64,000 nucleotides of DNA from Serratia surfactantfaciens (GTDB lineage: Bacteria; Pseudomonadota; Gammaproteobacteria; Enterobacterales; Enterobacteriaceae): positions 2,294,001-2,358,000 of the forward strand of contig NZ_CP016948.1 in NCBI RefSeq assembly GCF_001642805.2, given 5' to 3'. The notes under the pieces are model-generated. The model saw only the letters and a program-made list of their open reading frames with translations, was not told the origin of the DNA and ran no database searches. The position numbers were made by a program, and so were the translations under genes. Of this stretch, positions 7,901-55,668 are shown one piece after another. Position 1 is the stretch's first letter, and each line of letters starts with the position of its first letter.

Positions 7901-7916
7901 ATGGCGGAACGTCGGG

Positions 7917-13246: not shown

Positions 13247-15753
<2,507 letters not shown>

Positions 15754-15775
15754 AATGCGAACCTCTTCTGAATCA

Positions 15776-15799
15776 GGCTGCGCCGGTGAAGGCGCAGCC
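15776..15799 (-). other. Intercistronic hairpin astC-astA
   Basis: GGCTGCGCC / GGCGCAGCC, a 9-bp perfect stem with a 6-base loop, between the astC stop and the astA start. There is no T run. It may stabilise the astC 3' end or modulate expression downstream. Confidence 0.55.
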
Positions 15800-15805
15800 C
15801 GCTGA

Positions 15806-17035
<1,230 letters not shown>

Positions 17036-25856: not shown

Positions 25857-25945
25857 ACTTCGTGATTAACTTCACGCCAAGCTTTTCACATAAAAATGAC
25901 AGCTATACTCAAGAGGTTAATTTATGTTCAACCCTAGGAGGCGCC

Positions 25946-27346
25946 ATGCTGGGTCTTGATGCACTGGAACTCGCCAGAATACAGTTCGCCTTCACCGTGT
26001 CTTTCCATATCATCTTCCCCGCCATCACCATCGGTTTAGCCAGCTATCTGGCGGTGCTGGAGGGATTATGGTTGAAAACGCACAATGAAGCCTATCGTGA
26101 GCTTTACCATTTCTGGTCAAAGATTTTCGCCGTTAACTTCGGCATGGGCGTGGTTTCCGGGTTGGTGATGGCCTACCAGTTCGGCACCAACTGGAGCTTC
26201 TTCTCCGAGTTCGCCGGCAGCATTACCGGGCCGCTGCTGACCTACGAAGTACTGACCGCCTTCTTCCTCGAAGCCGGTTTCCTCGGTGTGATGCTGTTCG
26301 GCTGGAACCGCGTCGGCCCAGGGCTGCACTTCTTCGCTACCTGTATGGTGGCACTCGGCACGCTGATCTCCACCTTCTGGATCCTGGCCTCTAACAGCTG
26401 GATGCAAACCCCGCAGGGACACGAAATTATCAACGGCCAGGTGGTGCCGGTCGACTGGCTGAAGGTGATCTTCAACCCGTCCTTCCCGTATCGCCTGCTG
26501 CACATGTCCACCGCCGCCTTCCTCTCCTCGGCGTTCTTCGTCGGCGCTTCCGCCGCCTGGCACCTGCTGCGCGGCCGCGATACGCCGGCGATGCGCAAGA
26601 TGCTGTCGATGGCGATGTGGATGGCGCTGATCGTCGCGCCGGTGCAGGCGCTGATCGGCGATGCGCACGGCCTGAATACGCTGAAACACCAGCCGGCGAA
26701 GATCGCCGCCATCGAAGGCCACTGGGAAAACCCGCCGGGCGAAGCTACGCCGCTGATCCTGGTCGGTTGGCCGGACATGCAGCGTGAAGAGACTCGCTTC
26801 AAGCTGGAGGTGCCTTATCTCGGCAGCCTGATCCTGACGCACAGCCTGACCGAGCAAGTGCCGGCGCTCAAATCCTTCCCGCCGGAAGATCGCCCCAACT
26901 CCACCGTGGTGTTCTGGTCGTTCCGCATCATGGTCGGGCTGGGCATGCTGATGATTCTGGCCGGGGTGTGGAGCCTGTGGCTGCGCTGGCGCGGCGGGCT
27001 GTATCAGTCGCGTCCGTTCCTGTACTTCATTCTGTGGATGGGCCCGTCCGGGCTGCTGGCGCTGCTCGCGGGTTGGTTCACCACCGAGATCGGCCGCCAG
27101 CCCTGGGTGGTATATGGCCTGCTGCGCACCAAGGATGCGGTCTCCGCGCACGGCGATCTGCACATGAGCATCAGCCTGCTGGCGTTCATCATCGTCTATT
27201 GCTCGGTGTTCGGCGTGGGTTATTCCTACATGATGCGCCTGATCCGCAAAGGGCCACAGCCGCATGAGCACCAAGAAGACAATACCGAGGGCCGCCCGGC
27301 GCGTCCGCTGTCCGCGGTCAACGACACTCTGGATGACAGGAGCTGA
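25946..27346 (+). CDS. cioA: Cytochrome bd-type ubiquinol oxidase subunit I (CioA-like)
   Basis: A 466-residue integral membrane quinol oxidase subunit that takes electrons from ubiquinol to O2. LARIQFAFTVSFHIIFP carries the N-terminal heme ligand His21. TGEIGRQPW-type sequence (TTEIGRQPWVVYGLLRT) marks the quinol-binding Q-loop end, and NWSFFSEFAGSITGPLLTYEV the conserved core. It is shorter than E. coli CydA (522), as for the short-Q-loop cyanide-insensitive CIO subgroup. The start at 25946 has a perfect AGGAGG; an earlier in-frame ATG does not. Confidence 0.88.
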   Translation: MLGLDALELARIQFAFTVSFHIIFPAITIGLASYLAVLEGLWLKTHNEAYRELYHFWSKIFAVNFGMGVVSGLVMAYQFGTNWSFFSEFAGSITGPLLTYEVLTAFFLEAGFLGVMLFGWNRVGPGLHFFATCMVALGTLISTFWILASNSWMQTPQGHEIINGQVVPVDWLKVIFNPSFPYRLLHMSTAAFLSSAFFVGASAAWHLLRGRDTPAMRKMLSMAMWMALIVAPVQALIGDAHGLNTLKHQPAKIAAIEGHWENPPGEATPLILVGWPDMQREETRFKLEVPYLGSLILTHSLTEQVPALKSFPPEDRPNSTVVFWSFRIMVGLGMLMILAGVWSLWLRWRGGLYQSRPFLYFILWMGPSGLLALLAGWFTTEIGRQPWVVYGLLRTKDAVSAHGDLHMSISLLAFIIVYCSVFGVGYSYMMRLIRKGPQPHEHQEDNTEGRPARPLSAVNDTLDDRS

Positions 27347-27348
27347 AC

Positions 27349-28356
27349 ATGGGCATCGATCTTCCGCTGATTTGGTTTGTGATCATCGTGTTCAGCACCA
27401 TGATGTACGTGGTGATGGACGGTTTCGATTTGGGCATCGGCATCCTGTTTCCGTGGGTGAAAGCGAGCGACGACCGCGATCTGATGATGAACACCGTCGC
27501 CCCGGTGTGGGACGGCAATGAGACCTGGCTGGTGCTGGGCGGCGCGGCGCTGTTCGGCGCCTTCCCGCTGGCCTACTCGGTGATCCTCGATGCGCTGGCG
27601 ATCCCGCTGACGCTGATGCTGATCGGGCTGATTTTCCGCGGCGTGGCCTTCGAGTTTCGCTTCAAGGCAACACCGGAAAAGCGCCATATCTGGGACAAGG
27701 CGTTCATCTGGGGCTCACTGTTCGCCACCTTCAGCCAGGGGGTGGTGGTGGGCGCCGTGATCAACGGCTTCCCGGTCGAGGGCCGCACCTATGCCGGCGG
27801 CGCGCTGGACTGGCTGACGCCGTTCGCACTGTTCTGCGGGCTGGGGCTGGTGGTGACCTACGCCCTGCTCGGTTGCACCTGGCTGGTGATGAAAACCGCC
27901 GGTGATCTGCAGGCGCGCATGTATCACCTGGCGACGCCGCTGTTGGCGATCCTGTTGCTGGTGCTGGCTGCGGTCAGTATCTGGACGCCGATCGCCCATC
28001 CGGAAATCGCCGCCCGCTGGTTTACCTTGCCGAACCTGTTCTGGCTGCTGCCGGTGCCGGTGCTGGTGCTGCTCAGCGCCTGGGGAATTCAACGCGGGGT
28101 GAAACGCGGCGCGCACTACTCGCCGTTCATGCTGACGCTGCTGCTGGTGTTCCTCGGCCTGAGCGGGCTCGGCATCAGCATCTGGCCGCACCTGATCCCG
28201 CCGGCCATCAGCCTGTGGGACGCCGCCGCACCGCCGCAGAGCCTTGGGTTTATGCTGGTAGGCGCGCTGTTTATCATCCCGATCATTCTGGTCTACACCT
28301 TCTGGAGCTACTACGTGTTCCGCGGCAAGATCAGCCATGAACACGGCTATCACTGA
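27349..28356 (+). CDS. cioB: Cytochrome bd-type ubiquinol oxidase subunit II (CioB-like)
   Basis: A 335-residue subunit with eight or nine hydrophobic helices. MYVVMDGFDLGIGILFPW near the N-terminus, VWDGNETWLVLGGAALFGAFP and FRGVAFEFRFK are CydB-family hallmarks. It starts 2 bases after cioA with an AGGAGCTG site. It supports heme binding and assembly of subunit I. Confidence 0.9.
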   Translation: MGIDLPLIWFVIIVFSTMMYVVMDGFDLGIGILFPWVKASDDRDLMMNTVAPVWDGNETWLVLGGAALFGAFPLAYSVILDALAIPLTLMLIGLIFRGVAFEFRFKATPEKRHIWDKAFIWGSLFATFSQGVVVGAVINGFPVEGRTYAGGALDWLTPFALFCGLGLVVTYALLGCTWLVMKTAGDLQARMYHLATPLLAILLLVLAAVSIWTPIAHPEIAARWFTLPNLFWLLPVPVLVLLSAWGIQRGVKRGAHYSPFMLTLLLVFLGLSGLGISIWPHLIPPAISLWDAAAPPQSLGFMLVGALFIIPIILVYTFWSYYVFRGKISHEHGYH

Positions 28357-29126: not shown

Positions 29127-30212
29127 CTAGTGCGGCTTGCGTCCCATCGCGCTGAGGAAGCGTTGCTGCAGACGCAACAGTTCCTCCAACTCAAGCAGCC
29201 GGTAGTCGATGCCGAAACGCGGCGCCACCTCGCCGATAATGCGGCTCAGCGCCGGGTAATGGCGGTGGCTCCAATGCGGGAACAGATGATGCGTCAAATG
29301 CAGGTTCGCCCCGCCGAACCAGTAGCCCAGCCAGCGCGGCCGGGTCAACCAGTCGAAGGTAGTGGCGAACACATGATGATACCAGCCGTGCGGCATCGCG
29401 CCCTGCGCCGGCGCCTGGTAAAAGTTGGCCTTGGCCCAGTGGGTGCCGATGATCAACATCACGAACAGCAATGAAGAAAGCATCTGGCTCAGCAAATAGA
29501 CCAGCAGGATTTGCCCGATGCCGATGGCCGGCGGCAGCAGCCAGCACGGGATCGCCAGCGCCAGCAGCAGGTGCGCCGCCTTCCCCGCCAGAAAAGCGCT
29601 CCAGCCACGCACGCCCTGCTGCGCCATGCGGGCCGCCACGCGAGTGCGGCCCGCCCGGTCCAGCCAGTCGAACAGCCAGATGTAGTACGGGAACGTCAGC
29701 GCCGCCACCAGCGGCCAATAGTAACGCTGTGCGCGCATAAAGGGCCGCCAACGCTGGAACGGCGTTTGCCGCAGCACGCCGTTGGCGTCGATGTCGGGGT
29801 CGTAATGTTCGATATTGTTATGGGCATGGTGGAACAACACATGCCGCACGCGCCAGCAGTCAGGATCCAGCCCCAGCGGCACGCTCACCAGGGCGTTCAG
29901 CCAGCGGTTGGCCCAGGGCCGACGGAAAAACGCGTTGTGTGAGGCGTCGTGCACCACATTGACCGTCAGGAACATGCCGATAAAGATAAAACCGAAGTAA
30001 CAGGCGAAAAACGCCCAGCCGTTCTGCTGCTGCAGGCTCAGCCCGTAACACAGAGCGCACAGCGCCAGCAGCAGCGCCACCTTCGCCAGCATGCCGCCGT
30101 CGGCGAAGCGGTGGTCGCCGTTGGTCGCCAGATAATGCTGAGCGGCCTGCATCAGCGCGCGATGCAACCCGCTGTCGTCGCGCCGATAGGCTAACGGTCG
30201 CAGCGCTTTCAT
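29127..30212 (-). CDS. Fatty acid desaturase, paralogue 2
   Basis: A 361-residue membrane di-iron desaturase. The three histidine boxes are HDASH (in VNVVHDASHNAF), HVLFHH and HLTHH (in GGANLHLTHHLFPHWSHRHYP). The last box is typical of acyl-lipid front-end desaturases, though no cytochrome b5 domain is fused. It introduces a double bond into an acyl chain and needs an external electron donor, not encoded here. It is last in the eight-gene operon; the start is fixed by the ATGA overlap with its paralogue. The two are clearly related along their full length. Confidence 0.87.
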   Translation of the reverse strand: MKALRPLAYRRDDSGLHRALMQAAQHYLATNGDHRFADGGMLAKVALLLALCALCYGLSLQQQNGWAFFACYFGFIFIGMFLTVNVVHDASHNAFFRRPWANRWLNALVSVPLGLDPDCWRVRHVLFHHAHNNIEHYDPDIDANGVLRQTPFQRWRPFMRAQRYYWPLVAALTFPYYIWLFDWLDRAGRTRVAARMAQQGVRGWSAFLAGKAAHLLLALAIPCWLLPPAIGIGQILLVYLLSQMLSSLLFVMLIIGTHWAKANFYQAPAQGAMPHGWYHHVFATTFDWLTRPRWLGYWFGGANLHLTHHLFPHWSHRHYPALSRIIGEVAPRFGIDYRLLELEELLRLQQRFLSAMGRKPH

Positions 30213-31291
30213 GGCTGCCCCATGCGGCGCAGGAAACGCTGTTGCTGCGCCAGCAGTTCGCGATAGCCGATGCAGCGGTACGCCATGTCGTGCCGCTGCG
30301 CCACCTCCGCCACCGCAGCGGCCAGCGCCGGGTAATGGCGGTGATTCCAGCCGGGGAACAGGTGATGCGTCAGGTGATAGTTCAAGCCGCCGGTCAGGTG
30401 CTCCAGCCAGCGCGGCTCGGGCTGCCAGTCGCAGGCGGTGGCAAAATTGTGCCGGTACCAGCCGTGCGGCATGGTCTCGCCCGTCGGCGCCGGGTAAAAC
30501 TCGGCCTGCGCCCAGTGGGTGCCCAACAGCAGGAACACCACCAGCAGCGAGGCGCACATCTGGCTGAGCGCGTAGGCCAGCAACACCCATCCCCAACCGA
30601 TGCCGTGCAAATGACACAGGATCAGCGGCACAATCAGCACCAGCGCCAGATGGGCCAGCTTGCACAGCACGAACAGCGCCCAACCGCCGCGCCCGGCCAG
30701 CACGCGTTTTTCCCGCAGCGGCGTTTTATCGAGCCGATCGGACCAATCGAAAATCCAGGCGATGTAAGGCAACGAGAGCGCGGCGATCAGCGGCCAGTAA
30801 AGATGCTGATAGCGCATATGGGGCCGCCAGCGCTGGAACGGCGTCTGGCGGAAAAAGCCGTTCTCTTCGGTGTCCAGATCGTAGTGTTCGACGTTGGCGT
30901 AAACATGGTGGTAATCCACGTGCCGCGTGCGCCAATAGTCCGGATCGACGCCCAGCGGCAACGTCACCAACCGACCCACCAGGCGATTGGCCCAGGGCGC
31001 GCGCAGGAAAGCGTTGTGTGAAGCATCGTGATTGACGTTGACGTTGAGCAGCATGCCCATGGTCACGAACAGGAAATAACAGAGGAAAAACGCCCAGGGC
31101 TGATGCTGCAGCAGGCTCAGCGCGTAAAAGCCGATACACGACCCCATCAGCAGCGCGGCCTTGGCCAATCGCGCGGCATCGGCATAGCGATGATCGCCCG
31201 CCAGGCAGGCATGCGCCGCACGTTTGAGATCGCGGTGGAATGCCTGTTCGCCATCGGCGGGAAAACTCAGCGGCGGCAGTGATTCAACCAT
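30209..31291 (-). CDS. Fatty acid desaturase, paralogue 1
   Basis: A 360-residue membrane desaturase. The histidine boxes are HDASH (88-92), HVDYHH (124-129) and NYHLTHHLFPGWNHRHYP. The same layout and many of the same residues as the next gene show an ancient tandem duplication. Four hydrophobic helices flank the boxes. The start MVESLPPL overlaps the hydroxylase gene by 8 bases. The longer in-frame extension lies within that gene and is rejected. Regioselectivity cannot be inferred. Confidence 0.87.
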   Translation of the reverse strand: MVESLPPLSFPADGEQAFHRDLKRAAHACLAGDHRYADAARLAKAALLMGSCIGFYALSLLQHQPWAFFLCYFLFVTMGMLLNVNVNHDASHNAFLRAPWANRLVGRLVTLPLGVDPDYWRTRHVDYHHVYANVEHYDLDTEENGFFRQTPFQRWRPHMRYQHLYWPLIAALSLPYIAWIFDWSDRLDKTPLREKRVLAGRGGWALFVLCKLAHLALVLIVPLILCHLHGIGWGWVLLAYALSQMCASLLVVFLLLGTHWAQAEFYPAPTGETMPHGWYRHNFATACDWQPEPRWLEHLTGGLNYHLTHHLFPGWNHRHYPALAAAVAEVAQRHDMAYRCIGYRELLAQQQRFLRRMGQP

Positions 31292-32417
31292 GCGGCTCCT
31301 CCACGGCGACCGACGCGGCCATGCGCCCCCAGCCCAGCGCGACACACAGGGCATGCAGCGCCACGGCGGCCATGGCGATATGCCAATAGCGCTGTGGCCA
31401 GCCGAGATAGCCGATAAACAGCAGCGGCATACCTACTGCGATCCACAACCAAAGCGCGCTCGCCCACGGCCGCCCTTCCGTCATGCCGCCCAATGCCACC
31501 GATCCCAACGCCAGCAACGCCAGCAGCGCCATTTGCGGCCAGCTGACGTCAGCGTAGCCATAGCCGTATTGGTAGACGTAACCGACCACCAATGAGAACA
31601 ACAGCATGGCGCCGCTGAATACGCTAAACGCCGAACGGCGGTCGCGCGGCCGCCCGGGCGTCGGGCGCCAATCCAGCCGTAAATAACGCAGGAACGGCAG
31701 ATTGCTCGCCCAGAACGGGTTGGCGGATGGTCTGTCGCCGCTGACGCCATAGCTGAACGGCGTGGTCGGCAATGCCGGGCAGAAGGTGCCGAACAGCTTG
31801 TCCCAGAAGATAAAGCTGCCGCCGAAATTCTTATTGGAATACGCCATGTCCTTGACGTGGTGCACCCGGTGGTGCGCGGGCGTGACCAGAATGTTTTCCA
31901 GCACGCCGAGCTTCGGCGTCAGCGCGTTGTGATTAAACAGCTGGATGCTGTAATGAAAAATCGACACCGTGACGAATACCGACAGCGGCACGCCCGCCAG
32001 CGCCAGCAGCAAAAAGAACGGGATCGACGTCAACGACGAATACCAGGAGTTGCGCACCCCCAACGACAGATTGAAATGCTCGCCCTGATGGTGCACCACG
32101 TGCACCGCCCACAGCAGCCGGAAACGGTGGTGCAGACGGTGCAGCCAGTAGAAACCGAAGTCCCACGCCAGCAAAGCGAACAGCCACATCAACAGCGGCG
32201 GCCAGGCGTCTACCAGCCCCAGACTGAAATGTGCGGCTACGTAGCCGTAGCAGGTAATTTCCAGGCCGCGGAACAGCCACAGCATGATATGGCCGGAGTT
32301 CAGGTTGAACACCAGATCGTGCCAGTTAACCGGTTCACGGCGCCCCCACTGCAACGCCACCGCCTCGGCCACCACGATGAACAGCATGAACACTATCGGC
32401 AACGCCAGATCGCTCAT
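31284..32417 (-). CDS. Sterol desaturase / fatty acid hydroxylase family protein
   Basis: A 377-residue integral membrane di-iron enzyme. The histidine-rich motifs HRLHHRFRLLWAVHVVHHQGEHFN and THAHHRVHH-like PAHHRVHHVKD are present, followed by NFGGSFIFWDKLFGTF, close to alkylglycerol monooxygenase and bacterial sterol-desaturase homologues. A C-terminal region of about 110 residues adds four more membrane helices. It would hydroxylate or cleave a lipid alkyl chain. The start overlaps the PAP2 gene by 4 bases. Confidence 0.85.
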   Translation of the reverse strand: MSDLALPIVFMLFIVVAEAVALQWGRREPVNWHDLVFNLNSGHIMLWLFRGLEITCYGYVAAHFSLGLVDAWPPLLMWLFALLAWDFGFYWLHRLHHRFRLLWAVHVVHHQGEHFNLSLGVRNSWYSSLTSIPFFLLLALAGVPLSVFVTVSIFHYSIQLFNHNALTPKLGVLENILVTPAHHRVHHVKDMAYSNKNFGGSFIFWDKLFGTFCPALPTTPFSYGVSGDRPSANPFWASNLPFLRYLRLDWRPTPGRPRDRRSAFSVFSGAMLLFSLVVGYVYQYGYGYADVSWPQMALLALLALGSVALGGMTEGRPWASALWLWIAVGMPLLFIGYLGWPQRYWHIAMAAVALHALCVALGWGRMAASVAVEEPHG

Positions 32418-33031
32418 CCCATTTCTCCTTTAACCACGCGCCCACGCAGGGTCTGCATGCGCAGAGCCAACCAGCCGGCGAACAGCGCCAACAGCGCGCC
32501 GCCGGCCAGATCGACAAACAAATGGCGGCGCAGTTGCAGAATGGAGAACGCGATCGCCACGCCCCACAGCATCCACAGCGCCGTGCGCATTTTGCGCTCG
32601 CCGTCGCTCAGCGCCCACACCGCCAATACCGTCAACGCCATGTGCAACGAAGGCAAACAGTTTTGCGGCGAATCCACCTGGGTTAACGCCGCCAGCAGCT
32701 GCGCGCTGATCCCAACGCCATCGTTCTGCGGATAGGCCATGGTGGTCGGCCACAACAGATAAACCGCACCGGCGCCCAACGCGGTGAGCTGCATCGCCAG
32801 CGTCAGCCATTTTATCCGCTGCAGTGGCGCCAACAGATAGCCTGCCGGGACGATGAGGAAGAACGACAGATAAAGCCAGATGGCCGAGGGGCTGAACGGG
32901 ATCGCCCGGTCAAGCGCCGACGGCGGCAACAGCGTTCCCGCCCCCTGCAAGCGATCGGTCAGGTTATACACGATGCCAACCGTCCCCCAGCCCAGCAGCA
33001 TCTGCCACAGCCTGAACAGTGCGTTTTTCAT
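32414..33031 (-). CDS. PAP2-family membrane phosphatase
   Basis: A 205-residue protein with six hydrophobic helices. The PAP2 motifs C2 (NCLPSLHMALT) and C3 (QLRRHLFVDLAGG, with the His-x3-Asp) are seen. The KX6RP motif C1 is not obvious, and YPQNDG stands in its usual place. It may dephosphorylate a lipid phosphate or act as an inositol-phosphorylceramide-synthase-like transferase. The start overlaps the adenylating enzyme gene by 4 bases. Confidence 0.8.
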   Translation of the reverse strand: MKNALFRLWQMLLGWGTVGIVYNLTDRLQGAGTLLPPSALDRAIPFSPSAIWLYLSFFLIVPAGYLLAPLQRIKWLTLAMQLTALGAGAVYLLWPTTMAYPQNDGVGISAQLLAALTQVDSPQNCLPSLHMALTVLAVWALSDGERKMRTALWMLWGVAIAFSILQLRRHLFVDLAGGALLALFAGWLALRMQTLRGRVVKGEMG

Positions 33032-34314
33032 GTCTCCTCCGCCCGGCGCACAATGCGCCGCCGTTTGCGGTCGAACTGCGGCAGCACCGCCTGCGCCGTC
33101 AACCGCCATTCCAGCCATTCGGTGGCGATGCCCTGGCGAGCGAACAGCGCGTTCAACTGCGCCTGGCAGTGCACCAATTCAGCCTGGCTGCAATCGGCGA
33201 TCAGCTCCAGTCGCCGTTCGCCATGCTGGATCAGCCGGTAATCGCTGGTTAACGGCAGCGCATTGGCGATCGTCCGGCTGCAAGCATCGGCGAACACCGC
33301 CTGCGGTTGCCGCTGCGTATCGGGCAGCATCAGCTGATCGTCACGCCGCCCCTCGATGCGGGCGATCGCCCGCGTCGGTTGCCCGCACGGACAGGGCTCC
33401 TTGCGCAGCACCAGCACATCGTCCAGCCGATAGCGCACGATAGGCTGGGTACGGCGGGTAAAGTCGGTGATCAGCGGCGTGAAACGCAATTCGTCGATCC
33501 ACTGCGGTTCAATATGCAAGAACTCTTCGTTCAGATGCAACGTACCGTGCGCGCAGGTGGCGGCGAGGAAACCTTCGGTAGCCTGATACACTTCGCCGAC
33601 CGCCGGAAATACCTGCAACAGCAGGCGGCGATCCTGCTCTTCCAACACCTCGGCGACCGAGATCGCTTTTTTGACCGGCAGCTTCACCTGCCCGGCCAGC
33701 ACCGCCAACGCCAACGCGCGCAGCACCTGCGCCGGCGCCACAATGATGCTGGGTGCCTGCCGTTCCAATGCGGGCAGATGCCCGCTGAACGGCGCCAGCA
33801 GATCGTAAAACGCCAGGCTCAGCCAACGGTTGTTCACGCTGTGATAAAGATTATTGTCCGCCCGCAGAAACAGCGCGACGCGCTCGCCGGCCAACAGCCC
33901 GTCCGGCAGCATCTTCGCCAGCATGCCGCCGGCCCACACCTGTTGTTCGCGCGGGCTGACGACAAACACGCCGCGCTGCCCGGAGGTGCCGGACGACAAT
34001 CCGACGCTGTAGCGCCCGATCTTCGGCGTGAAATCGCGATCCGCCTCGCTGCGCTGCGCGCAGGCCAGCACCGCATCGCGTTGCAGCCCGGCGGTGTTCA
34101 TCCGATCGAATAGCTCCATCATCAACGCCTTGTCCATCTGCGGCCATTCGGCGAACGGCCGGCGGCTGAAGCCTTGAAAATAGGGGCTCTTGCTCAGCAC
34201 CCGACGGGCAAAGCCCGCGAGCTGGCGGGCCTGATGCGCCTCCAGCGCCGCACGATCGCCAAAGCGCAGGCGCCGGGCGCGAAAATAGTGCCAAAGAGTC
34301 ATGAAGGGGATCAC
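33028..34314 (-). CDS. PaaK/F390-synthetase-like adenylate-forming enzyme
   Basis: About 428 residues. The ATP-binding P-loop-like SSGTSGQRGVFVVS is at roughly residue 120, the YQATEGFLA block follows, and RYRLDDVLVL, CPCGQP and IEGRRDD near the C-terminus follow the coenzyme F390 synthetase/PaaK pattern. It would activate a carboxylic acid as an acyl-adenylate. The GTG at 34314 is chosen because GAGGGGG lies 6 bases upstream and it gives the 4-base overlap seen at the other junctions. The ATG at 34302 has no site. Confidence 0.82.
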   Translation of the reverse strand: MIPFMTLWHYFRARRLRFGDRAALEAHQARQLAGFARRVLSKSPYFQGFSRRPFAEWPQMDKALMMELFDRMNTAGLQRDAVLACAQRSEADRDFTPKIGRYSVGLSSGTSGQRGVFVVSPREQQVWAGGMLAKMLPDGLLAGERVALFLRADNNLYHSVNNRWLSLAFYDLLAPFSGHLPALERQAPSIIVAPAQVLRALALAVLAGQVKLPVKKAISVAEVLEEQDRRLLLQVFPAVGEVYQATEGFLAATCAHGTLHLNEEFLHIEPQWIDELRFTPLITDFTRRTQPIVRYRLDDVLVLRKEPCPCGQPTRAIARIEGRRDDQLMLPDTQRQPQAVFADACSRTIANALPLTSDYRLIQHGERRLELIADCSQAELVHCQAQLNALFARQGIATEWLEWRLTAQAVLPQFDRKRRRIVRRAEET

Positions 34315-35117
34315 AGGTCCCCCTCGTGGCACAGCAAAATGTTGACCTGGCCGCCCGCCCACAGCTGGTTGAGCCGCTCCAGCGTGCGGGTATACGCCGC
34401 CGCGTCGTCCATCACCAGATTGGCCAGGCGCGAAGGCCCGCGCAGCGTCTGGTAACTCTGCGGCGACCAGGCGGCGTCGCTGGCCAGCAGCGTCCAACCG
34501 GCGTCGGTGAGAATAAAGGCGCCGATATGGCCGGCCGCATGCCCCGGCAACGGCACCAGCACGATCTGCCCTTCGCTGCCCGGCAGCGCATAGCCGCGCT
34601 CGAACGGTGCCAGCAGCGCGGGCAACGCCACCGAGGGAAAAGCTTCCATCAACTGCAGGTTGCTCTCGAAATCCGGCGGGATCAGGCCGGGAATAAAGGC
34701 GCGCTTCAGCGCCGCGAAACCGCGCAGATCACGGGTTTGCCGCCAGCCCTCGCCAGAACAAATAAAGTCGAGTTGACCGAAATCATGCAGCCCGGCGATG
34801 TGATCAGCGTGAAAATGCGAGACGATCAGCGTCTGAATATCCCCCTCGGCGTAACCGGCGGCGCGCAGCTGATGCGCCAACGACTCGGCGGGATCGAAAT
34901 AGACCGGCGTCATTCGGCGGTAAAGGCTGAACAGCCCCGACTGCGTGTGCTGCTGAAAATAACGCGCATAGCCGGTATCCCACAGCCAGCGCCGCTCTCC
35001 CACCTCCAGCAGATAGGCGCGCGCCGGGAATTTGCACACCCGGAACCCGGCGCCGCGCAGCGCCATGCAGCCGATATGCGTGCAGTAACCCACTTCAAAA
35101 ACGGTGACCTTAGCCAT
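34311..35117 (-). CDS. MBL-fold metallo-hydrolase
   Basis: A 268-residue cytoplasmic enzyme. The zinc motif HFHADH is at 101-106. Further ligands are in PLPGHAAGHIG and ASDAAWS, with a C-terminal LLCHEGD. The overall form resembles N-acyl-homoserine lactonase-type and other lactonase or thioesterase MBL enzymes. In this operon it may release the product from a thioester or open a lactone, but that is inference. The site GGAGG precedes the ATG, and it overlaps the reductase gene by 8 bases. Confidence 0.83.
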   Translation of the reverse strand: MAKVTVFEVGYCTHIGCMALRGAGFRVCKFPARAYLLEVGERRWLWDTGYARYFQQHTQSGLFSLYRRMTPVYFDPAESLAHQLRAAGYAEGDIQTLIVSHFHADHIAGLHDFGQLDFICSGEGWRQTRDLRGFAALKRAFIPGLIPPDFESNLQLMEAFPSVALPALLAPFERGYALPGSEGQIVLVPLPGHAAGHIGAFILTDAGWTLLASDAAWSPQSYQTLRGPSRLANLVMDDAAAYTRTLERLNQLWAGGQVNILLCHEGDL

Positions 35118-36126
35118 GCTGTATGCCTCCTTGCTGCCGCAGCCACTCGCCGGTCAGGCGAATGCCCTCCTCCATAGAGTAACGCGGCCGATAGCCCAGC
35201 TCTTCGATCGCGCGGGTCTGGCTCAGCGTCATGTCAAAATGCACCGCCGCCACGCTGTAGCGCGTCAGCAGCGGTTCCTTGCCGCTCAGCGTCGCCCACA
35301 GCTCCATGCCGCCGGCCAGCGCGTGCAGCAGCGGATAAGGCACCGCCTGCAGCCGGTAGCTCAGCCCCAGCTCCTGACGCAGCAACGCATCCAGCATCTC
35401 CGCCAACCGCTGCGGCTGGTGGTTGGTAATGTTGTAAACGGCGCCGGACGGCAACCCGCGCTGCCGGCTGGCCAGTTCCATCGCGTGCACAACGTTGGGG
35501 GCGAAGGTCAGATCCAGCAGCGCTTGCCCGCCGCCGGGCAGCCGCAGCACGCCGCGATCGCGGTCGAGCTGCTGTAACAGCCGCGGCACGATCACCCGAT
35601 CGTGCGGGCCAAACAGGCCGCGCGGCCGCAGAATAATGTAGGTGGTTTGCGGATAGATTTTCGCCTGCGCCAACAGCCGCTGCTCGGCGACGTGCTTGCT
35701 GGCGGCATAGTGATTGGCGAAGCGCCGGGCACGGAAACCTTCGTCCAGATCGTAATGCGGCCGAAAATCGAAGTAGATCGCCGGCGTGGAGATATGCACG
35801 AAGCGCCGCACGCCGCAGCGCCCCGCCGCCTCCGCCAGTTTCTCCGTTGCGGCGGCGTTGATGCGGTGAAACTCCGCTTTGCCGCCCCAGGGCGAGGACT
35901 TGGCCGCGCAGTGCCACACCCACTCGCAGCCGGTCACCAACTGCCGGCACTGCTGCGGCGTGGCCTGCGCCAGATCGAGCGAGAAAAACTCGGCGCCCAG
36001 TTGACGCAACGCTTCGCCGGCCCGCTCGTCGCGGCCGGTGGCGCGCACCTGATGTCCCGCCTCCAGCAGCCACTGCGCCGCGTTGCGCCCCAGCCCGCTG
36101 GTCGCCCCGGTGACCAGCACCCTCAT
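35110..36126 (-). CDS. NAD(P)-dependent reductase, OleD / 3-beta-HSD type
   Basis: A 338-residue extended short-chain dehydrogenase. The Rossmann motif VTGATSGLG is at 5-13. The active-site Tyr and Lys lie in HYAASKHVAE, and an ILRPRGLFGPHD block follows. Overall form and neighbour (a KSIII/OleA-like enzyme) suggest reduction of a 2-alkyl-3-ketoacid or beta-ketone to the alcohol, as OleD does. Nucleotide-sugar epimerase is the alternative but does not fit the context. Overlaps: 4 bases with the ketosynthase gene and 8 with the MBL gene. Confidence 0.82.
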   Translation of the reverse strand: MRVLVTGATSGLGRNAAQWLLEAGHQVRATGRDERAGEALRQLGAEFFSLDLAQATPQQCRQLVTGCEWVWHCAAKSSPWGGKAEFHRINAAATEKLAEAAGRCGVRRFVHISTPAIYFDFRPHYDLDEGFRARRFANHYAASKHVAEQRLLAQAKIYPQTTYIILRPRGLFGPHDRVIVPRLLQQLDRDRGVLRLPGGGQALLDLTFAPNVVHAMELASRQRGLPSGAVYNITNHQPQRLAEMLDALLRQELGLSYRLQAVPYPLLHALAGGMELWATLSGKEPLLTRYSVAAVHFDMTLSQTRAIEELGYRPRYSMEEGIRLTGEWLRQQGGIQHG

Positions 36127-37130
36127 GGCAGCAACACCATGCCGGCCAGCGCCAGCCCGGCGGCGGTGCCGATCAGCATCACCGGCCGACCGGGATTGAA
36201 GCGCCCGGTGGTCACGGCGGCATGCAGCGCCGTCGGAATCGACGCCGCCACCTGATTGCCATGATGGCGGTAGATATCCACCAGCGCCTCGCTGGAGACG
36301 TGCAGCCGCTTGCGCATATGTTCGAGCGACAGATGACTGGCCTGATGCGGCACCACGGTGGCGATCTGCGCCAGGGTCAAACCGCTGGCGCTCAGCAGCC
36401 GGTCGAGGTAATCCTCAATTAGCGCCGACGCCTGGCGGAACAGCGGCTTGCCCTGCATATGAAACAGGAAGTCTTGCTCGCACATGCCGGCGCGCGGGTT
36501 GCGCCGCGTGCCGCCGGCGCGGATTTCGCACAGCTCGCTGCCGGCGGGATAGGTTTCCACCAGGCTGGCGAGGATGCCGCTGGCGCCGTCGCCGCGTTCC
36601 ACGATGGCGCAGGCGGCGCCGTCGCCGAAGATCAGCGACGACTCTTCGTGCTGCCAGTCGATGCCGCGTGAAGCGAGATCGGCCGAGACGATGGCGATGC
36701 GTCGATACGTTCCGGCGTTCAACAGCCCCGCCGCCACCTGCAGCGCAGAGATAAAGCTGACGCAGCTGCTGTTGATGTCGAAGCCCGGCGTGCCCGGCGC
36801 CAGCCCCGCCACCTTGAGAATGTGCGCGGCGGTGCACGGCAGCGCCTGCACCGAAATCGCCGAGGCGGAGATCAGCAGGTCGATAGAGGCTGCCGGGAGG
36901 GCGCTGCGAACCAGCGCGTCTTGCAGCGCGGCGGCGGCGAGATCGGCCTGGCTGGCGTCGTCGGCGGCATGATAGCGGTAAACGATGCCCGAGCGTTTCT
37001 CAACGTAGCCGGCCGGTTTCCCCAGGCGGGCATCGAGCGTAGAAGAAGCCACGCGGTTGGGCGGCAACGCAGCCCCGGTGGCGATGATTTTCAGAGGCAG
37101 CGGCTCGGGTGAGCAAAATTGTGTGGTCAT
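36123..37130 (-). CDS. KSIII-like ketosynthase, OleA-like condensing enzyme
   Basis: A 335-residue thiolase-superfamily enzyme with the complete KSIII triad Cys123 (INSSCVSF), His262 (VPHQASH) and Asn292 (HHGNQVAASIP). It would condense an acyl thioester with malonyl-ACP (FabH type) or with a second acyl-CoA (OleA type). The adjacent OleD-like reductase favours the second. It is the first gene of the eight-gene operon, 273 bases after narI. The start has a weak ribosome binding site. It is not the housekeeping fabH, which lies in the fab cluster. Confidence 0.85.
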   Translation of the reverse strand: MTTQFCSPEPLPLKIIATGAALPPNRVASSTLDARLGKPAGYVEKRSGIVYRYHAADDASQADLAAAALQDALVRSALPAASIDLLISASAISVQALPCTAAHILKVAGLAPGTPGFDINSSCVSFISALQVAAGLLNAGTYRRIAIVSADLASRGIDWQHEESSLIFGDGAACAIVERGDGASGILASLVETYPAGSELCEIRAGGTRRNPRAGMCEQDFLFHMQGKPLFRQASALIEDYLDRLLSASGLTLAQIATVVPHQASHLSLEHMRKRLHVSSEALVDIYRHHGNQVAASIPTALHAAVTTGRFNPGRPVMLIGTAAGLALAGMVLLP

Positions 37131-37403
37131 TATTGTTATTGATTAACCTGACTATCCATAAAGCGATTCTCCCGCACGACGCGAAGGCCACGCGGATCAT
37201 CCCCGGTTTTTATATCCCAAAATGCCTTTCATCAAGGCGGTATCTCTTGTTATCGGCTACCACGGGCCGACGTCCGTCGGCGTAAGCATAAGCGTAACAT
37301 GACTGAGATATTCAGTTTACGACATGGCGGGGAGAATGGGCAGACGGCGGGCGAATTATCGGAATAGCGCCGCCGCTGGCGATCAGCGGCGGCGAGGTCA
37401 GGC
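37131..37403 (-). other. narI - lipid operon intergenic region with hairpin
   Basis: The stem CGCCGCCGCTG / CAGCGGCGGCG (37368-37394, 11 bp, 5-base loop) follows narI and is a likely transcription barrier, although no T run follows. The remaining bases must hold the promoter of the lipid operon. I saw no recognisable regulator site. Confidence 0.5.
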
Positions 37404-38081
37404 TCAACGGCGGTTGCGCACCAGCTGGTAACGGCGGGTCAGGTATTCCACCGGCGCACTCCAGATATGCACCAGGCGGCAGAATGGGAACAGTACAAAC
37501 AGCGTCATGCCCAGCACCATGTGCAGCTTGAAGATCAGCGCCACCCCTTCGAGATGTGCAGAGGCACCGGCGTGGAAGGTCACCACCGCCTGGGCCCAGG
37601 CCACCAGCTTCATCATTTCGCTGCCGTCCATATGCTGGGCGGAGAACGGAATGGTCAGCAGGCCGAGGCACACCTGCACCACCAGCAACGTCAGGATCAT
37701 GATGTCGGCGAAGCTGCTGGTAGCACGCACCCGCGGGTTGGTTAACCGGCGTTTGAGCAACAGTGCGCCGCCGATCAGCGTCATCAGGCCGCAGGCGCCG
37801 CCGGCGATCATCGCCAGCTTCTGCTTCACGTCGATCGGCAGGAAGGCCTCATACATCCAGTGCGGCGTCAGCATGCCGAGGAAGTGGCCGGCGAAGATGC
37901 CGATAATGCCGATATGAAACAGGTTGGACGCCAGGCGCATGCCCTTTTTATCCAGCATCTGGCTGGAACCGGCGCGCCAGCTGTACTGCCCGTAGTCGTA
38001 GCGCAGCCAGCTGCCGATCAGGAACACCGCACCGGCCAGATAAGGGTAGATGTCGAAGAAGAACTGATTCAAAAATTGCAT
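37404..38081 (-). CDS. narI: Respiratory nitrate reductase gamma subunit NarI
   Basis: A 225-residue cytochrome b with five membrane helices. It oxidises quinol at the periplasmic side and passes electrons via two b hemes to Nar[17 protein letters not shown] and [21 protein letters not shown] supply the heme-ligand histidines. Length equals E. coli NarI. It starts 2 bases after narJ, with an AAGGAC site. Confidence 0.95.
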
Positions 38082-44397: not shown

Positions 44398-46266
44398 TCA
44401 GCGTTGAAGCCACAGCGTCGCGGTGCCCACGGCGGGCAACGCCAGCATGAGCTCCGCCCCCCCTCCCTGCTGCCGCCAGCCCGCCGGAAGGCGCAATCGG
44501 GTGCTTCCCTCTCGATAATAGGGGTTGGCTACCAGCAGCAAGGCGCGATCGCCCAGAATAAACATCCGCGCCGGCATTTGAGGGTCGCTTCCCGCCAGCG
44601 GCGTCGATTTTCCTGTCAGCAGATAAGGGGTGAAGGCGGCGATTTGCTGCGACACGGCAGCCACACCACGCCAGGTAGCGTCAAACTCCCGTTGGTCGAA
44701 GCGGCCGGTTTTGCGCTTGTAAAACAGATCGGTATAAGAATAAAACAACAGTCCCTTGGCACCGCCGATCAGCGCCTGCCAGGCCTGATTGCGAATTTCC
44801 GCCTCTGACGGTGGATGTGGCCTACGGCGAGCGTCATAAGCGGCGTGATCCATGATTTGCATCACCACCCAGGCCCCGCGAGCCTGACGGGCGGCCTGTA
44901 CCGTCAGGGCGGTATAACGCGTGGTGCGCGTCAGATCGCTATCGTTCCCCACCGGGTAAGGATCGGTCGCCAAAATGTCGCTGCTGTTAAAGTAGGCGTC
45001 CAACTCCCCGGTTTTGTTCAACACCTGGAAGGTAGGATGATCGCCGTCAAGCCGCTTTATTTGCAGGTTTTTTTCCTCGATCTTATCGAGATACTCCGGC
45101 CCCAGTTCATCGTTGATGTACCAGGCGAGCAGGTTGGGCTGAGAGCGCAAACGCTGCACGTGCCAGGCCGTCATCGCCGCGTAGTCGCCACCGCGTACGG
45201 CCGGAGCGAAACGGCTGCCGCTGTACTGATCTTTGACGGAGTAAATGACCAGCAGCCCGCGGTTGCGTGCGTTGCGGAAAAAGGTGTAAGGATCTTTCTT
45301 TTCCCCATAATCATAGTTCAGCACCGTGTTGAATCCCGCCGATGCGATGCGCGCCAAATGCTCATCGGTAGCCACGTTGGCATAAATGCCCAACGGGAAA
45401 AGTCGTTGACCATCGCGCAGGGTAAAGCCTTCGCTGTCGATCGCCACTTTGGCCGCAGGCTGCCCGACGCGAAAAGACAGCTCGCTACCCTGTACCGGCT
45501 GGGATTGCTGCCCGGTGACCTGCTGACGCAGGCGATATTCCCCCTGGGCCAGGCCAGTCGGCAGTTGATATTCGATACGGCGCTGCCCTTCAACCTGATA
45601 ACGGTCGCGGCTACTGTGAACAACCTGCCCTGCGGCATTGAGCAATTCGCTGTCGACCTGCAAATGCTGCGGCTGCGGAGTAACCAGCAGCGTGTCGACT
45701 TTCCCCTGTGTCGACGCGCCGAGCTGATATAACGCCGGCGTAGGCGCTCGAGCACACGCATAGGCGTCATCAAACCAGGCGGTACCGGTGCTCCCCTTGC
45801 GCAGATAGACGCCAAAAGTGACTCGCGCCGCCTGCGGCGGCACGGTATAGCTGGCGCTCACCTGCCGCCAGCCGCTGTCACCGGTCACCCCTGCCGGGTA
45901 GCTGCCTTCCAGAAAGCGCCCTTGCGCATCGAAGCTCTGCAGATAAACCCCAGCACCACCGTCGCGGCTTTGCCCGCGTACGCCATGGGTCTTGAGCCAG
46001 ACGCCGAAATCGATCGTCTGCCCGGGCACAACCCGCAGCATCTGGCTGAAGGTGCGGTACTGCGCGGCATCTGCATTGTCATAACGCAGACTTCCACGGC
46101 CGCTGTGCGTATCGCCGTCGGCCTGCGCGCCTTGCGCACGCCAGCCGCTGAGACCCTGTTCAAAGCCGGGGTTGGCCAACAGATTGGGTTGGCAGCTCTG
46201 CGCCAGAGCAAAAGCACTCCACCAGGCACAACAGACCAGAGCCACCCTCTGATACATCCCCTTCAT
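44398..46266 (-). CDS. Secreted carbohydrate-binding, glycoside-hydrolase-like protein
   Basis: 622 residues. A signal peptide (MKGMYQRVALVCCAWWSAFA, cleavage after ALAQ) is followed by a jelly-roll carbohydrate-binding-type domain at about 25-165 (NLLANPGFEQGLSGWRAQG, GTAWFDDAYAC). A beta-sandwich linker comes next, then a TIM-barrel region from about 270 (LFPLGIYANVATDEHLARIASAGFNTVLNYD). The acid residue candidate is in NLLAWYINDELGPEYL. I cannot assign a CAZy family. As last gene of the exopolysaccharide operon it probably trims or degrades the polymer in the periplasm. The ATG at 46266 has AGGA 7 bases upstream. Confidence 0.72.
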   Translation of the reverse strand: MKGMYQRVALVCCAWWSAFALAQSCQPNLLANPGFEQGLSGWRAQGAQADGDTHSGRGSLRYDNADAAQYRTFSQMLRVVPGQTIDFGVWLKTHGVRGQSRDGGAGVYLQSFDAQGRFLEGSYPAGVTGDSGWRQVSASYTVPPQAARVTFGVYLRKGSTGTAWFDDAYACARAPTPALYQLGASTQGKVDTLLVTPQPQHLQVDSELLNAAGQVVHSSRDRYQVEGQRRIEYQLPTGLAQGEYRLRQQVTGQQSQPVQGSELSFRVGQPAAKVAIDSEGFTLRDGQRLFPLGIYANVATDEHLARIASAGFNTVLNYDYGEKKDPYTFFRNARNRGLLVIYSVKDQYSGSRFAPAVRGGDYAAMTAWHVQRLRSQPNLLAWYINDELGPEYLDKIEEKNLQIKRLDGDHPTFQVLNKTGELDAYFNSSDILATDPYPVGNDSDLTRTTRYTALTVQAARQARGAWVVMQIMDHAAYDARRRPHPPSEAEIRNQAWQALIGGAKGLLFYSYTDLFYKRKTGRFDQREFDATWRGVAAVSQQIAAFTPYLLTGKSTPLAGSDPQMPARMFILGDRALLLVANPYYREGSTRLRLPAGWRQQGGGAELMLALPAVGTATLWLQR

Positions 46267-46268
46267 GG

Positions 46269-47012
46269 TCATTTCCTTTTCACCACGGCATTGAACAGGT
46301 AGGTGGCGAACAGATAACAGGATTTCTGGTAAGACAGCCCCAAATGCTGACGGTAAATCCGCCATTGCCAGTCTGCGGCGCGGATTTTGTTGCCCGACAG
46401 CGAATGGGTAGACAATCGGTAGCAGGCCAGCGGTTCAGGAATGCAGTAAGCCAGGCCGTTGCGCGCCTTCTGCAGCACCGCCAGCCACATCAAATAGTCC
46501 TCATGGCCTACTTTTTGCTGATACACCTTACCGATGCGCTTCTGGTTATAGATCCCGGTGAGATTGCCGATCCAGTTGCTTTTCAACATGTCCTGATAGC
46601 CAATAAGCTCATCCGCGCCACGGGTGTTTTTGACCAATTTCAGGTCGTCTTCAAAGGTGTAATAATGGGAACACACCACGTCATAGCGGCGGGTTTGCAA
46701 AATGCTCGCCTGGCGCGACAGCTTGTTGGGCAGCCATACGTCATCACTGTCACAGAAGGCGATATAGTCGCCCTTCGCCGCCTCAATGCCGATGTTGCGC
46801 GTTTCCGCCACGCCCTGGTTATGCTCATTACGTATATAGGTGAGGCGATCGTGGATAAACGGCCGCACAACCTCGGCAGTATCGTCGGTAGACGCATCAT
46901 CGATCACATACAGGTGATAATCGGTAAATCGCTGGTTCAGCACGCCTAAAATCGACTCTTTAATAGAGTTCGCAGCATTGTAGGCCGGCATTATCACGGA
47001 TATCTTTTCCAT
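46269..47012 (-). CDS. Family 2 glycosyltransferase
   Basis: A 247-residue GT-A enzyme. It has the N-terminal nucleotide-sugar motif ISVIMPAYNAANSI, DDASTDDTAEV and the metal-binding DxD-like IAFCDSDDVWLPNKL, followed by an acceptor region. There is no membrane helix. It adds one sugar to the undecaprenyl-linked repeat unit on the cytoplasmic face. Donor and linkage are unknown. It is 7 bases from the preceding gene. Confidence 0.86.
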   Translation of the reverse strand: MEKISVIMPAYNAANSIKESILGVLNQRFTDYHLYVIDDASTDDTAEVVRPFIHDRLTYIRNEHNQGVAETRNIGIEAAKGDYIAFCDSDDVWLPNKLSRQASILQTRRYDVVCSHYYTFEDDLKLVKNTRGADELIGYQDMLKSNWIGNLTGIYNQKRIGKVYQQKVGHEDYLMWLAVLQKARNGLAYCIPEPLACYRLSTHSLSGNKIRAADWQWRIYRQHLGLSYQKSCYLFATYLFNAVVKRK

Positions 47013-47019
47013 ACTGTCC

Positions 47020-48075
47020 TCACTCGGTGAGCTGTTGCCACTGGGGATAAATACGTTCGGGGGTAAAACGACGAGACTTCTCTAACGCGGCAATAGAAAA
47101 GTGCTCGCGCAAACCCGGATCGAGCATCAATTTGATCACCCCTTCGCTGAAGGCGGCGGCGTCGTCATCGGGCACCAGATAGCCGTTGACGCCGTCGTCT
47201 ATCAACTCGGCCGGGCCGGTCTTGCAGTCGTAGGCCACCAGCGGCAGGCCGAAACTCATGGCTTCGATCAGCACCATCGGCAACCCCTCATAGCGAGAAG
47301 TCATCAGATACAGACTGGCTTGGCGATAATAGGCCGCCACGTCGGCGGTGGCCGGCAGTAGGCTCACCTGCTGCTCCAACCCGGCGTCTTCAATCTGCCG
47401 CCGCAATGCGTCGCGCTCTGGACCGTCGCCAATAATCAACAGCCGCCAATCCGGCACCTGCGCCGCCACTCCTCGCCACAACGCGATTAGACGATCGAAG
47501 CCTTTCTGATTGCTCAATCGCCCCACCGCCAGCGCCACCTTGTTCTGCAGCGCCGGCGTCGGCGCCTGCGTGCCGAACGGTGAAACGTTCTCGATCACCC
47601 GACATTTCCCGGCCCCCACCCAGCGAGCGATGGCGTCGCTATCTTGCCGCGTCAGGAAAATCACGCGGTCGCCCAGACGGTAAACCAGCAACTTCAACCA
47701 CTTAAATACGCGTGGATACTGGTGAAAGCTGACGTGTTCACTCAACAGCAGCCGGCTGCGGGCACAGAACAAACGCAGAAAAGGCGTCATCACCACCGAT
47801 AGTTTCCCCATGGAAACGGTAATGATCACGTCCGCGCGTTCACGCCGCAGGGCCATCGCCAGCCGCCATGGCCAGAACAGCGAATCGCCGCCGCCGCAGC
47901 GCAGCCGGACGTCGCTCGCCAACGGAAAGAAGCTCCGCTCGCCAAACAGCGAAAACACCGCCACCTCGTAACCCGGCAGACGTGCCAGCGCATTGGCCAA
48001 GCCGCTGGCGACCCGTTCAGTACCGCCCTTGCCCGCTATATTTTCGATAACGATGATTACCTTGCGTGGTTGCAT
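47020..48075 (-). CDS. Family 4 (GT-B) glycosyltransferase
   Basis: A 351-residue retaining glycosyltransferase. The N-terminal IENIAGKGGTERVASGLANAL is the typical acceptor-domain start. VALAVGRLSNQKGFDRLI opens the donor domain, and EGLPMVLIEAMSFGLPLVAYD carries the E-x7-E motif. The start MQPRKVIIV at 48075 lies 2 bases after the preceding gene. The longer in-frame upstream frame overlaps that gene and is rejected. Confidence 0.86.
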   Translation of the reverse strand: MQPRKVIIVIENIAGKGGTERVASGLANALARLPGYEVAVFSLFGERSFFPLASDVRLRCGGGDSLFWPWRLAMALRRERADVIITVSMGKLSVVMTPFLRLFCARSRLLLSEHVSFHQYPRVFKWLKLLVYRLGDRVIFLTRQDSDAIARWVGAGKCRVIENVSPFGTQAPTPALQNKVALAVGRLSNQKGFDRLIALWRGVAAQVPDWRLLIIGDGPERDALRRQIEDAGLEQQVSLLPATADVAAYYRQASLYLMTSRYEGLPMVLIEAMSFGLPLVAYDCKTGPAELIDDGVNGYLVPDDDAAAFSEGVIKLMLDPGLREHFSIAALEKSRRFTPERIYPQWQQLTE

Positions 48076-48076
48076 A

Positions 48077-48982
48077 TCATCTCCTGAATCCCTGGCGCAC
48101 ATTGCGCAGTAGCCGGCCGCCAACCGAGAACAACCCCAACCGCGCCAGACAATCGCCATACCATTTGATCATCTTGAACTTGCCGCTCAGACTGTGCCGC
48201 ACGATGCGCGACGAGTAATAATTGAACGCCTGGGCGTTCTCCGAATACAGCGAGGCCAGCAGGTGCTTGCAGGCGAATCCGCTGATATGGCGATCGCTGG
48301 GGCTGAGAAAGGTATTGATAAAGCGATCGCTGGCCTCCAAATTTAGCTTCGCCGTCATGCGCCCGTAGCGTCCTACGTCGAGAAACACCCCTCCGCCGGC
48401 GTCGTGTGCCACATGCGCGCCCAAATTGGTGGCATTGACTAAAAAGCCCCAATCCTGATGCTTATTGAGGAATTCGGGAAATAAAAAGCGGCGATCGCTT
48501 TTTTTACGTATGCTGATGGTGGATGAACGGATATCACCCATTTCCAGAAAAAGGAAATCTTCGCCGGAAGAACCGGATTTGTAGTTGAAGTTGAAGTCAC
48601 GTACCGAATCGCCGCTCACCTCCGCATAGTTACCGAAGATAATATCAATCTGGCGATCTTCATGTTTATTCATGCGGCGAATAATATAGTTGGTCGTGAA
48701 GTAATCATCAGAGTCGAGAAAAAACACGATCTCCGATTGCGCCAACCTGATACCTAAGTTACGCGATACCGCCGCATTGCTCTTCTTTTTTTTCTCATGC
48801 AACATCACGTTGCTATTGGTCGCTGCTATCTGGCGAATATATTTGATATCATCCTCGTCAGAGCAATCATCAACCAAAATCACCTGATAGTCGAACCCTT
48901 GGCAAGCGTTGAAAACCCGCTTCAGAGTTTTAGGCAGATAACGTGCACTATTATAAATAGGGATCACGATCGAGAAATCCAT
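48077..48982 (-). CDS. Family 2 glycosyltransferase
   Basis: A 301-residue GT-A enzyme. It has FSIVIPIYNSARYLPKTLKRV, VDDCSDEDD and VFFLDSDDYFTTNYI as the nucleotide and metal motifs. The C-terminal half (YYSSRIVRHSLSGKFKMIKWYGDCLARLG) is basic and may contact the membrane. It is 3 bases after the polymerase gene. Together with the two other transferases and the initiator, it suggests a repeat unit of about four sugars. Confidence 0.85.
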   Translation of the reverse strand: MDFSIVIPIYNSARYLPKTLKRVFNACQGFDYQVILVDDCSDEDDIKYIRQIAATNSNVMLHEKKKKSNAAVSRNLGIRLAQSEIVFFLDSDDYFTTNYIIRRMNKHEDRQIDIIFGNYAEVSGDSVRDFNFNYKSGSSGEDFLFLEMGDIRSSTISIRKKSDRRFLFPEFLNKHQDWGFLVNATNLGAHVAHDAGGGVFLDVGRYGRMTAKLNLEASDRFINTFLSPSDRHISGFACKHLLASLYSENAQAFNYYSSRIVRHSLSGKFKMIKWYGDCLARLGLFSVGGRLLRNVRQGFRR

Positions 48983-48985
48983 TTC

Positions 48986-50140: not shown

Positions 50141-50146
50141 AAGTGT

Positions 50147-52274: not shown

Positions 52275-52278
52275 CCGC

Positions 52279-54462: not shown

Positions 54463-54489
54463 TTTCTGTTCCTTATTCATCCTGCGGAC

Positions 54490-55623: not shown

Positions 55624-55668
55624 GGGGTTACCGTGATAGACGGGCTGCTGTCGCAGCCCGTGAGAGGA

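Follow-up and report, generated by a model that had tools for sequence, protein, structure and literature searches.

Several described systems combine enzymes of the kinds considered here. OleABCD unites a ketosynthase, a short-chain dehydrogenase/reductase (SDR), a hydrolase and an adenylating enzyme; PQS biosynthesis, in which PqsA, PqsD and PqsE act in activate-extend-release order, draws on an adenylating enzyme, a FabH-type ketosynthase and a metallo-β-lactamase-fold (MBL) hydrolase; the ketosynthases CorB and 4v2p, the latter of which we take to be MxnB, serve polyketide synthase lines; and ceramide metabolism, which has two head-group routes, employs AUR1, SMSr, GT21, fatty-acid-hydroxylase-type enzymes and desaturases. 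Here we examine an operon of eight genes on the minus strand at positions 29127–37130 of a 64,000-nucleotide stretch of Serratia surfactantfaciens DNA (the window), whose source genome is a single contig of 5.12 Mb. Its first four genes, encoding a ketosynthase (KS), an SDR, an MBL hydrolase and an adenylate-forming enzyme (ADE), make up a conserved core that appears to be undescribed, although biosynthetic gene clusters as a kind are already known. The other four, encoding a PAP2-family protein, a fatty-acid-hydroxylase-type enzyme (FAH) and two desaturases (DES1 and DES2), belong to an exchangeable module.

The operon departs from each of these systems. Its core enzymes are of the classes that occur together in OleABCD, and its SDR resembles OleD, but its KS lacks the OleA glutamate, its hydrolase and adenylating enzyme come from other families, and a lipid-tailoring module is attached; OleB and OleC, which the first-pass annotation had reported missing, were indeed absent from the eight genes, to which the search was confined. 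The likeness to PQS biosynthesis is one of enzyme class only, and here the operon differs in having a reductase and membrane lipid enzymes and no anthranilate genes. CorB and 4v2p are the closest solved relatives of the KS, but no polyketide synthase is among the eight genes. The two tailoring modules contain the enzyme classes that modify ceramide, but neither a serine palmitoyltransferase nor a ceramide synthase is encoded by the eight genes, again the full extent of that search. Two models, TIGR02304 for ADE and PRK07204 for the KS of two Bacillota, name core proteins without a function and cover single proteins rather than a cluster. We found no description of this cluster or its product among the open-access papers listed, subscription journals being largely outside the scope of the search, in keeping with the initial view that the gene set has no recognised product.

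A conserved four-gene core with exchangeable modules

Start and stop frames were read for all eight genes, which fill 29127–37130 on one strand and, as first proposed, overlap at every one of the seven junctions (by 4, 8, 4, 4, 4, 8 and 4 bases from KS to DES2); each frame has one stop, placed terminally. The core consists of KS (36123..37130, 335 amino acids), SDR (35110..36126, 338 amino acids), MBL (34311..35117, 268 amino acids) and ADE (33028..34314, 428 amino acids, with a GTG start), and is followed by PAP2 (32414..33031, 205 amino acids), FAH (31284..32417, 377 amino acids), DES1 (30209..31291, 360 amino acids) and its paralogue DES2 (29127..30212, 361 amino acids). Domain scans bore out the families named in the first-pass annotation, the likeness to OleA and OleD and the function of PAP2 aside: the Pfam matches were ACP_syn_III for KS, Epimerase/3Beta_HSD for SDR, Lactamase_B for MBL, PAP2_3 for PAP2, FA_hydroxylase for FAH and FA_desaturase for each desaturase, with no Pfam match for ADE. 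These family scans used preliminary ends for all genes but KS, SDR and FAH, such that 208 of the 268 MBL residues were covered and ADE carried 61 foreign N-terminal residues and missed 28 C-terminal ones; preliminary ends were also used when ADE was compared with solved structures and protein clusters.

Scanning one genome per species gave 383 matching stretches. Of these, 360 were ADE relatives, and we studied the best 80 loci. KS, SDR, MBL and ADE stood in this order on one strand in 80/80, and the core was kept in all 11 more distant loci examined, with one inserted gene in two Bacillota. In 25 further short loci, which include the window's own and perhaps some conspecific with members of the 80, SDR, MBL and ADE were together in every case. 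By contrast, the exact eight-gene set, with PAP2-FAH-DES1-DES2 behind ADE, occurred in 35 of the 80 loci, and other loci had PAP2-FAH-DES2 (10/80), PAP2-FAH-DES1 (5/80) or PAP2-FAH without a desaturase (2/80, each at a contig end or close to one). A glycosyl module, comprising an OleD-like SDR2, a GT21 glycosyltransferase, F15 and a GT28-like glycosyltransferase, was found alone in 10/80 loci, with parts not found in two of these, and in series with the PAP2/FAH module in 6/80; three loci beyond the 35 carried all eight genes plus the glycosyl module. Nothing was recognised behind ADE in seven of the 80, and PAP2 lay upstream of the core in five, all Xenorhabdus. Overall, FAH was present in 58/80 loci, GT21 in 16/80, and neither in 12/80. 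The unit that is conserved comprises four of the eight genes: the idea of one dedicated lipid-type pathway is supported in that the genes belong together, but what is common to all loci is a core to which different modules are joined.

For F15 we found no firm Pfam family; one of ten members had a faint α/β-hydrolase match, and GSCG, D and H positions were invariant. In the five Xenorhabdus loci the upstream PAP2 is isolated, with several hundred bases between it and KS; neither FAH nor DES was found there. Both a bare core and the full eight genes occur in Snodgrassella, in S. alvi WF3-3 and S. communis, respectively.

When the start codon closest to a 4-base overlap was chosen, such an overlap could be read at KS/SDR in 78 of the 80 loci and at MBL/ADE likewise in 78, a recurrence indicating that the gene linkage is more than chance. 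The genes also share a history. Pairwise distances among core proteins correlated at r 0.951–0.963 (91 of 93 rows, two being dropped for coverage; 0/999 permutations as high), and those of PAP2, FAH, DES1 and DES2 (66, 60, 45 and 53 rows, respectively) correlated with KS and ADE distances at r 0.855–0.945 (0/499 permutations as high); shared organism history contributes to both sets of values. Unrelated phylogenetic distributions, the outcome that the first-pass annotation had named as counting against linkage, were not what we found.

A quick tree was built from 63 of 91 concatenated cores, near-copies excluded, and came with long-branch warnings. On this tree the minimum number of changes was 8 for the PAP2/FAH module and 2 for the glycosyl module, and Pseudomonas adjoined one Serratia group, with two other Serratia placed elsewhere, which suggests transfer. 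In pairwise comparisons with five Serratia-type loci, the ratio of non-synonymous to synonymous substitution rates (dN/dS) was 0.04–0.22 for the eight genes, and 39 of the 40 values exceeded those of both narI and narG, upstream neighbours of the operon, in the same comparison. Judged by these ratios, selection acts on the operon but constrains it less than the neighbouring nar genes.

Core and tail enzymes

The KS has a Cys-His-Asn triad (C123, H262 and N292), the mark of a decarboxylating ketosynthase III, in 93/93 sequences. Its best solved relatives were 4v2p (169 bits) and CorB (162 bits) and also include 3h76, titled 'PQS biosynthetic enzyme' and presumably PqsD; a Val in the window protein aligns with the Glu just before LGLG of CorB. 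Against PRK07204, the KS of Paenibacillus (424.9 bits) and Pontibacillus (444.9 bits) passed the cut-off of 402, with the window KS (336.6 bits) and that of one distant ATP-grasp/Rieske locus (325.1 bits) falling under it. Three PRK09258-type ketosynthases, one above the model cut-off and two under it, which we take to represent the OleA family, share a conserved Glu that precedes the Cys by 26, 25 and 25 residues, presumably the position of the catalytic E117 relative to the active C143 in the X. campestris enzyme. In the core KS this column holds Leu (88) or Ile (5) in all 93 sequences. We therefore rejected the OleA reading and retained from the first-pass annotation the assignment to ketosynthase III, of FabH/CorB type; the substitution favours an ordinary decarboxylative condensation rather than OleA head-to-head joining.

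The SDR is an extended short-chain reductase with OleD-, HpnA- and NSDHL-like features, and its S-Y-K residues (S113-Y140-K144) are present in 92/92 sequences. Its closest models were OleD (NF042422; 154.4 bits, cut-off 580) and HpnA (117.6 bits, cut-off 367.65), scores too low to uphold its earlier naming as an OleD-like reductase, and its nearest solved chain was a sterol-4-alpha-carboxylate 3-dehydrogenase. Six metal-site residues of MBL (HxHxDH, H193 and D214) are conserved in 93/93 sequences and H264 in 89, the other four being gaps; its nearest solved relatives were the Zn-dependent hydrolase 2r2d and acyl-homoserine lactonases, and we infer that it is a thioesterase. The catalytic residues examined in KS, SDR and MBL were invariant apart from alignment gaps.

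ADE, of PaaK/F390 type, scored far above the cut-off of 251.9 bits for TIGR02304, 'F390 synthetase-related' (552.7 bits with preliminary ends, 575.1 in the genome search). Its solved relatives were phenylacetate-CoA ligases, AjiA1 and PaaK-like ligases, all weak (best E 2.8e-6, preliminary ends), and FlxY and BagE/FevW models gave weak scores. The Lys of a C-terminal "FDRKRRRI" stretch, which we take to be catalytic, was present in 78 of 91 sequences, the other 13 having gaps. Published papers mention genes of F390-synthetase name in a fatty-acid gene cluster of D. psychrophila (PMC2649909), as a COG1541 member (PMC5467263) and among phenol-responsive genes (PMC5501837). A Tn5 insertion in IYO_RS29540, named "Coenzyme F390 synthetase", is listed as reducing the virulence of P. 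syringae pv. actinidiae (score 2; PMC9823363), and the close tag IYO_RS29530 is an anthranilate synthase component; we made no link from this mutant to the ADE family and gave it no weight as a phenotype.

The tail begins with PAP2, a membrane protein that the first-pass annotation called a phosphatase. The canonical PAP2 lipid phosphatase motifs, KX6RP and SRX5HX3D, were each found in 0/66 sequences, and PSLH and RHxxxD were found in 66/66, matching the His-His-Asp triad that marks AUR1 / sphingomyelin-synthase-type transferases. AUR1 was the sole match in a profile search, and AUR1-type and SMSr chains were the top three matches to a structure model by Foldseek and by VIA, the model being closest to ceramide head-group transferases with LpxE tied. 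On motifs and modelled fold, PAP2 looks more like a lipid head-group transferase than a phosphatase. FAH is a membrane hydroxylase of the sterol-desaturase/OlsE family (PF04116, 96.9 bits; OlsE 78.5 bits, under a cut-off of 475), and DES1 and DES2 are membrane fatty-acid desaturases (PF00487); histidine boxes were seen in these window proteins, and searches of solved structures with FAH and DES profiles returned nothing useful.

A candidate pathway and its alternatives

The genes and their order, their co-inheritance, the catalytic residues, the exchange of modules and the fold match of PAP2 are what the data show; from these and the enzyme families we infer a set of reactions, their order, their substrates and a product. 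The reading that we prefer, and on which we judge the balance to be even, is that the operon makes a modified acyl lipid with four conserved core enzymes and a tailoring module that can be exchanged, in a scheme of condensation, reduction, release, activation and tailoring in which the order of action would follow the order of the genes. KS would join an acyl thioester to a malonyl unit by decarboxylative Claisen condensation, SDR would convert the 3-keto group by reduction into a 3-hydroxyl, MBL would hydrolyze the thioester, and ADE would re-activate the resulting acid as an adenylate and attach it to an acceptor. Both desaturases, together with FAH, would modify the chain later, and the PAP2-family protein, acting as a transferase, would exchange the polar head group. 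In other bacteria it would be the glycosyl module, alone or after the PAP2/FAH module, that makes the head. The same scheme with PAP2 as an ordinary lipid-phosphate phosphatase is possible but doubtful, given the absence of both phosphatase motifs in 66/66 sequences and the AUR1 and SMSr matches described above.

A more specific version would make the product a ceramide-like lipid formed without serine palmitoyltransferase in Enterobacteria, among them many E. coli of gut and clinical origin. The core would supply a 3-hydroxyacyl backbone, which would be desaturated and hydroxylated like sphingoid chains and receive its cap from one of two swappable head-group modules, with an AUR1/sphingomyelin-synthase-like transferase in one and a ceramide-glucosyltransferase-type GT21 enzyme in the other. 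What suggests this is the alternation of the transferase-like PAP2 module with the GT21 module, which has a counterpart in the two routes by which ceramide gains its head group; we nevertheless consider the proposal improbable.

Other arrangements of the same enzymes have to be weighed. If the core instead worked in the order of the PQS enzymes, ADE would activate an aryl or acyl starter, KS would extend it with malonyl, SDR would reduce it and MBL would release it as a thioesterase. Aryl acids are the substrates of the phenylacetate-CoA and PaaK-like ligases, AjiA1, FlxY and BagE/FevW that ADE resembles, VanA_C is matched by the Rieske enzymes found in distant loci, and 3h76 is a solved relative of KS; but the likeness of ADE to solved chains is weak, the operon has no gene for making an aryl acid, and its tail consists of membrane lipid enzymes, so that we think this order unlikely. 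An Ole-type route, with KS joining two acyl chains head to head and without decarboxylation, SDR as OleD, ADE forming a β-lactone like OleC and MBL in place of OleB, would yield a β-lactone or olefin. It calls on the same four enzyme classes, and OleD is the best NCBIfam model of SDR; yet the Leu or Ile in the OleA Glu column, the distance of SDR from the OleD cut-off and the fact that MBL is not an α/β hydrolase make it very unlikely. Finally, core and tail could be separate pathways with nothing in common but a transcript, as might be supposed from the 12 loci with a core but neither FAH nor GT21. With the tail genes tracking the history of the core and all eight window genes overlapping their neighbours, we find this hardly credible.

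Distribution and genomic surroundings

The distant loci were the five best-scoring outside the family and six plasmid records from a set of 12 that carry a KS relative. All five of the former had the four core genes in order, three with ATP-grasp and Rieske genes behind the core and two with GNAT and Rieske genes behind it and ATP-grasp on the other strand. The core was likewise present in 6/6 plasmid loci, from Paraburkholderia, Shinella, Paracoccus, Burkholderia stagnalis, Paenibacillus and Pontibacillus; in the last two an ATP-grasp gene lies between KS and SDR, so that the core genes keep their order but are not contiguous. The Paracoccus locus has a core without a module and the Burkholderia locus a core with PAP2-FAH-DES1. 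Two genes each read in two pieces, a Rieske gene of the Paraburkholderia locus (15454–16423) and an SDR gene of one distant locus (7684–8669). The best 120 relatives of the Paenibacillus ADE were, where named, mostly from Paenibacillus and Cohnella.

TIGR02304 was matched above its cut-off in 24/60 of the nearest genomes, all in the genus of the window, in 40/295 family genomes and in 7/398 phylum genomes, the window's own genome being included in each set, and the window ADE was 96% identical to a Serratia marcescens-named protein cluster over 87% of the query (preliminary ends). With an Escherichia copy as query, the operon was matched in 672 of 5,426 complete E. coli genomes, about one in eight, and over at least 80% of its length in 671. 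Carriers include NRG 857C, ABU 83972, E2348/69, an O25b:H4-ST131 record and an EcN record, which we take to be strain Nissle and which matches the seven-gene form along its entire length; common human-gut E. coli are among the carriers. At megablast sensitivity, among plasmid records, the E. coli form was found in two E. coli records only. In NRG 857C seven genes, DES1 being absent, lie between narI and tRNA-Tyr genes; E. coli K-12 has no operon and the same site is empty. Similarity between the two strains runs to the final base of narI and picks up again inside the rtT/tRNA-Tyr repeats, where DES2 ends or just behind that point; the site has sharp edges. Bacteria as distant as Paenibacillus and E. 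coli keep the four-enzyme set together, with modules that can be exchanged, which points to a class of lipids or lipid signals in bacteria that is as yet undescribed.

In the window the upstream neighbour, outside the pathway, is narI (37404..38081, minus strand; TIGR00351, 387 bits), the nearest gene of a narGHJI operon (narJ 151, narH 1004 and narG 2442 bits); narI adjoins the operon upstream in 23/80 loci and also in NRG 857C. The 273 bases between narI and KS (37131..37403) are a candidate promoter region. On the operon strand this gap holds two promoter-like matches, at 37382–37355 and at 37158–37129, the latter reaching into the KS start codon, and no terminator-like match was found within it; the last ~110 bases before KS contain conserved blocks among 11 Serratia upstream regions compared. 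The desaturases and hydroxylase are of oxygen-using families, although they follow a nitrate-respiration operon. Downstream, on the opposite strand, lie cydAB-like quinol oxidase genes (25862–28356).

Two other accounts of the operon were considered and rejected. Its GC content per kb (0.62–0.69) is like or slightly above that of its surroundings (0.58–0.66 over 22–46 kb), contrary to a mobile element, and the eight proteins gave 0 PADLOC matches at E <= 0.001, contrary to anti-phage defence. Elsewhere in the window, an exopolysaccharide locus on the operon strand (44398–56718) encodes a TuaG-like glycosyltransferase under its cut-off, a Wzc-like kinase (961 bits, cut-off 1068) and a polysaccharide export protein above its cut-off.

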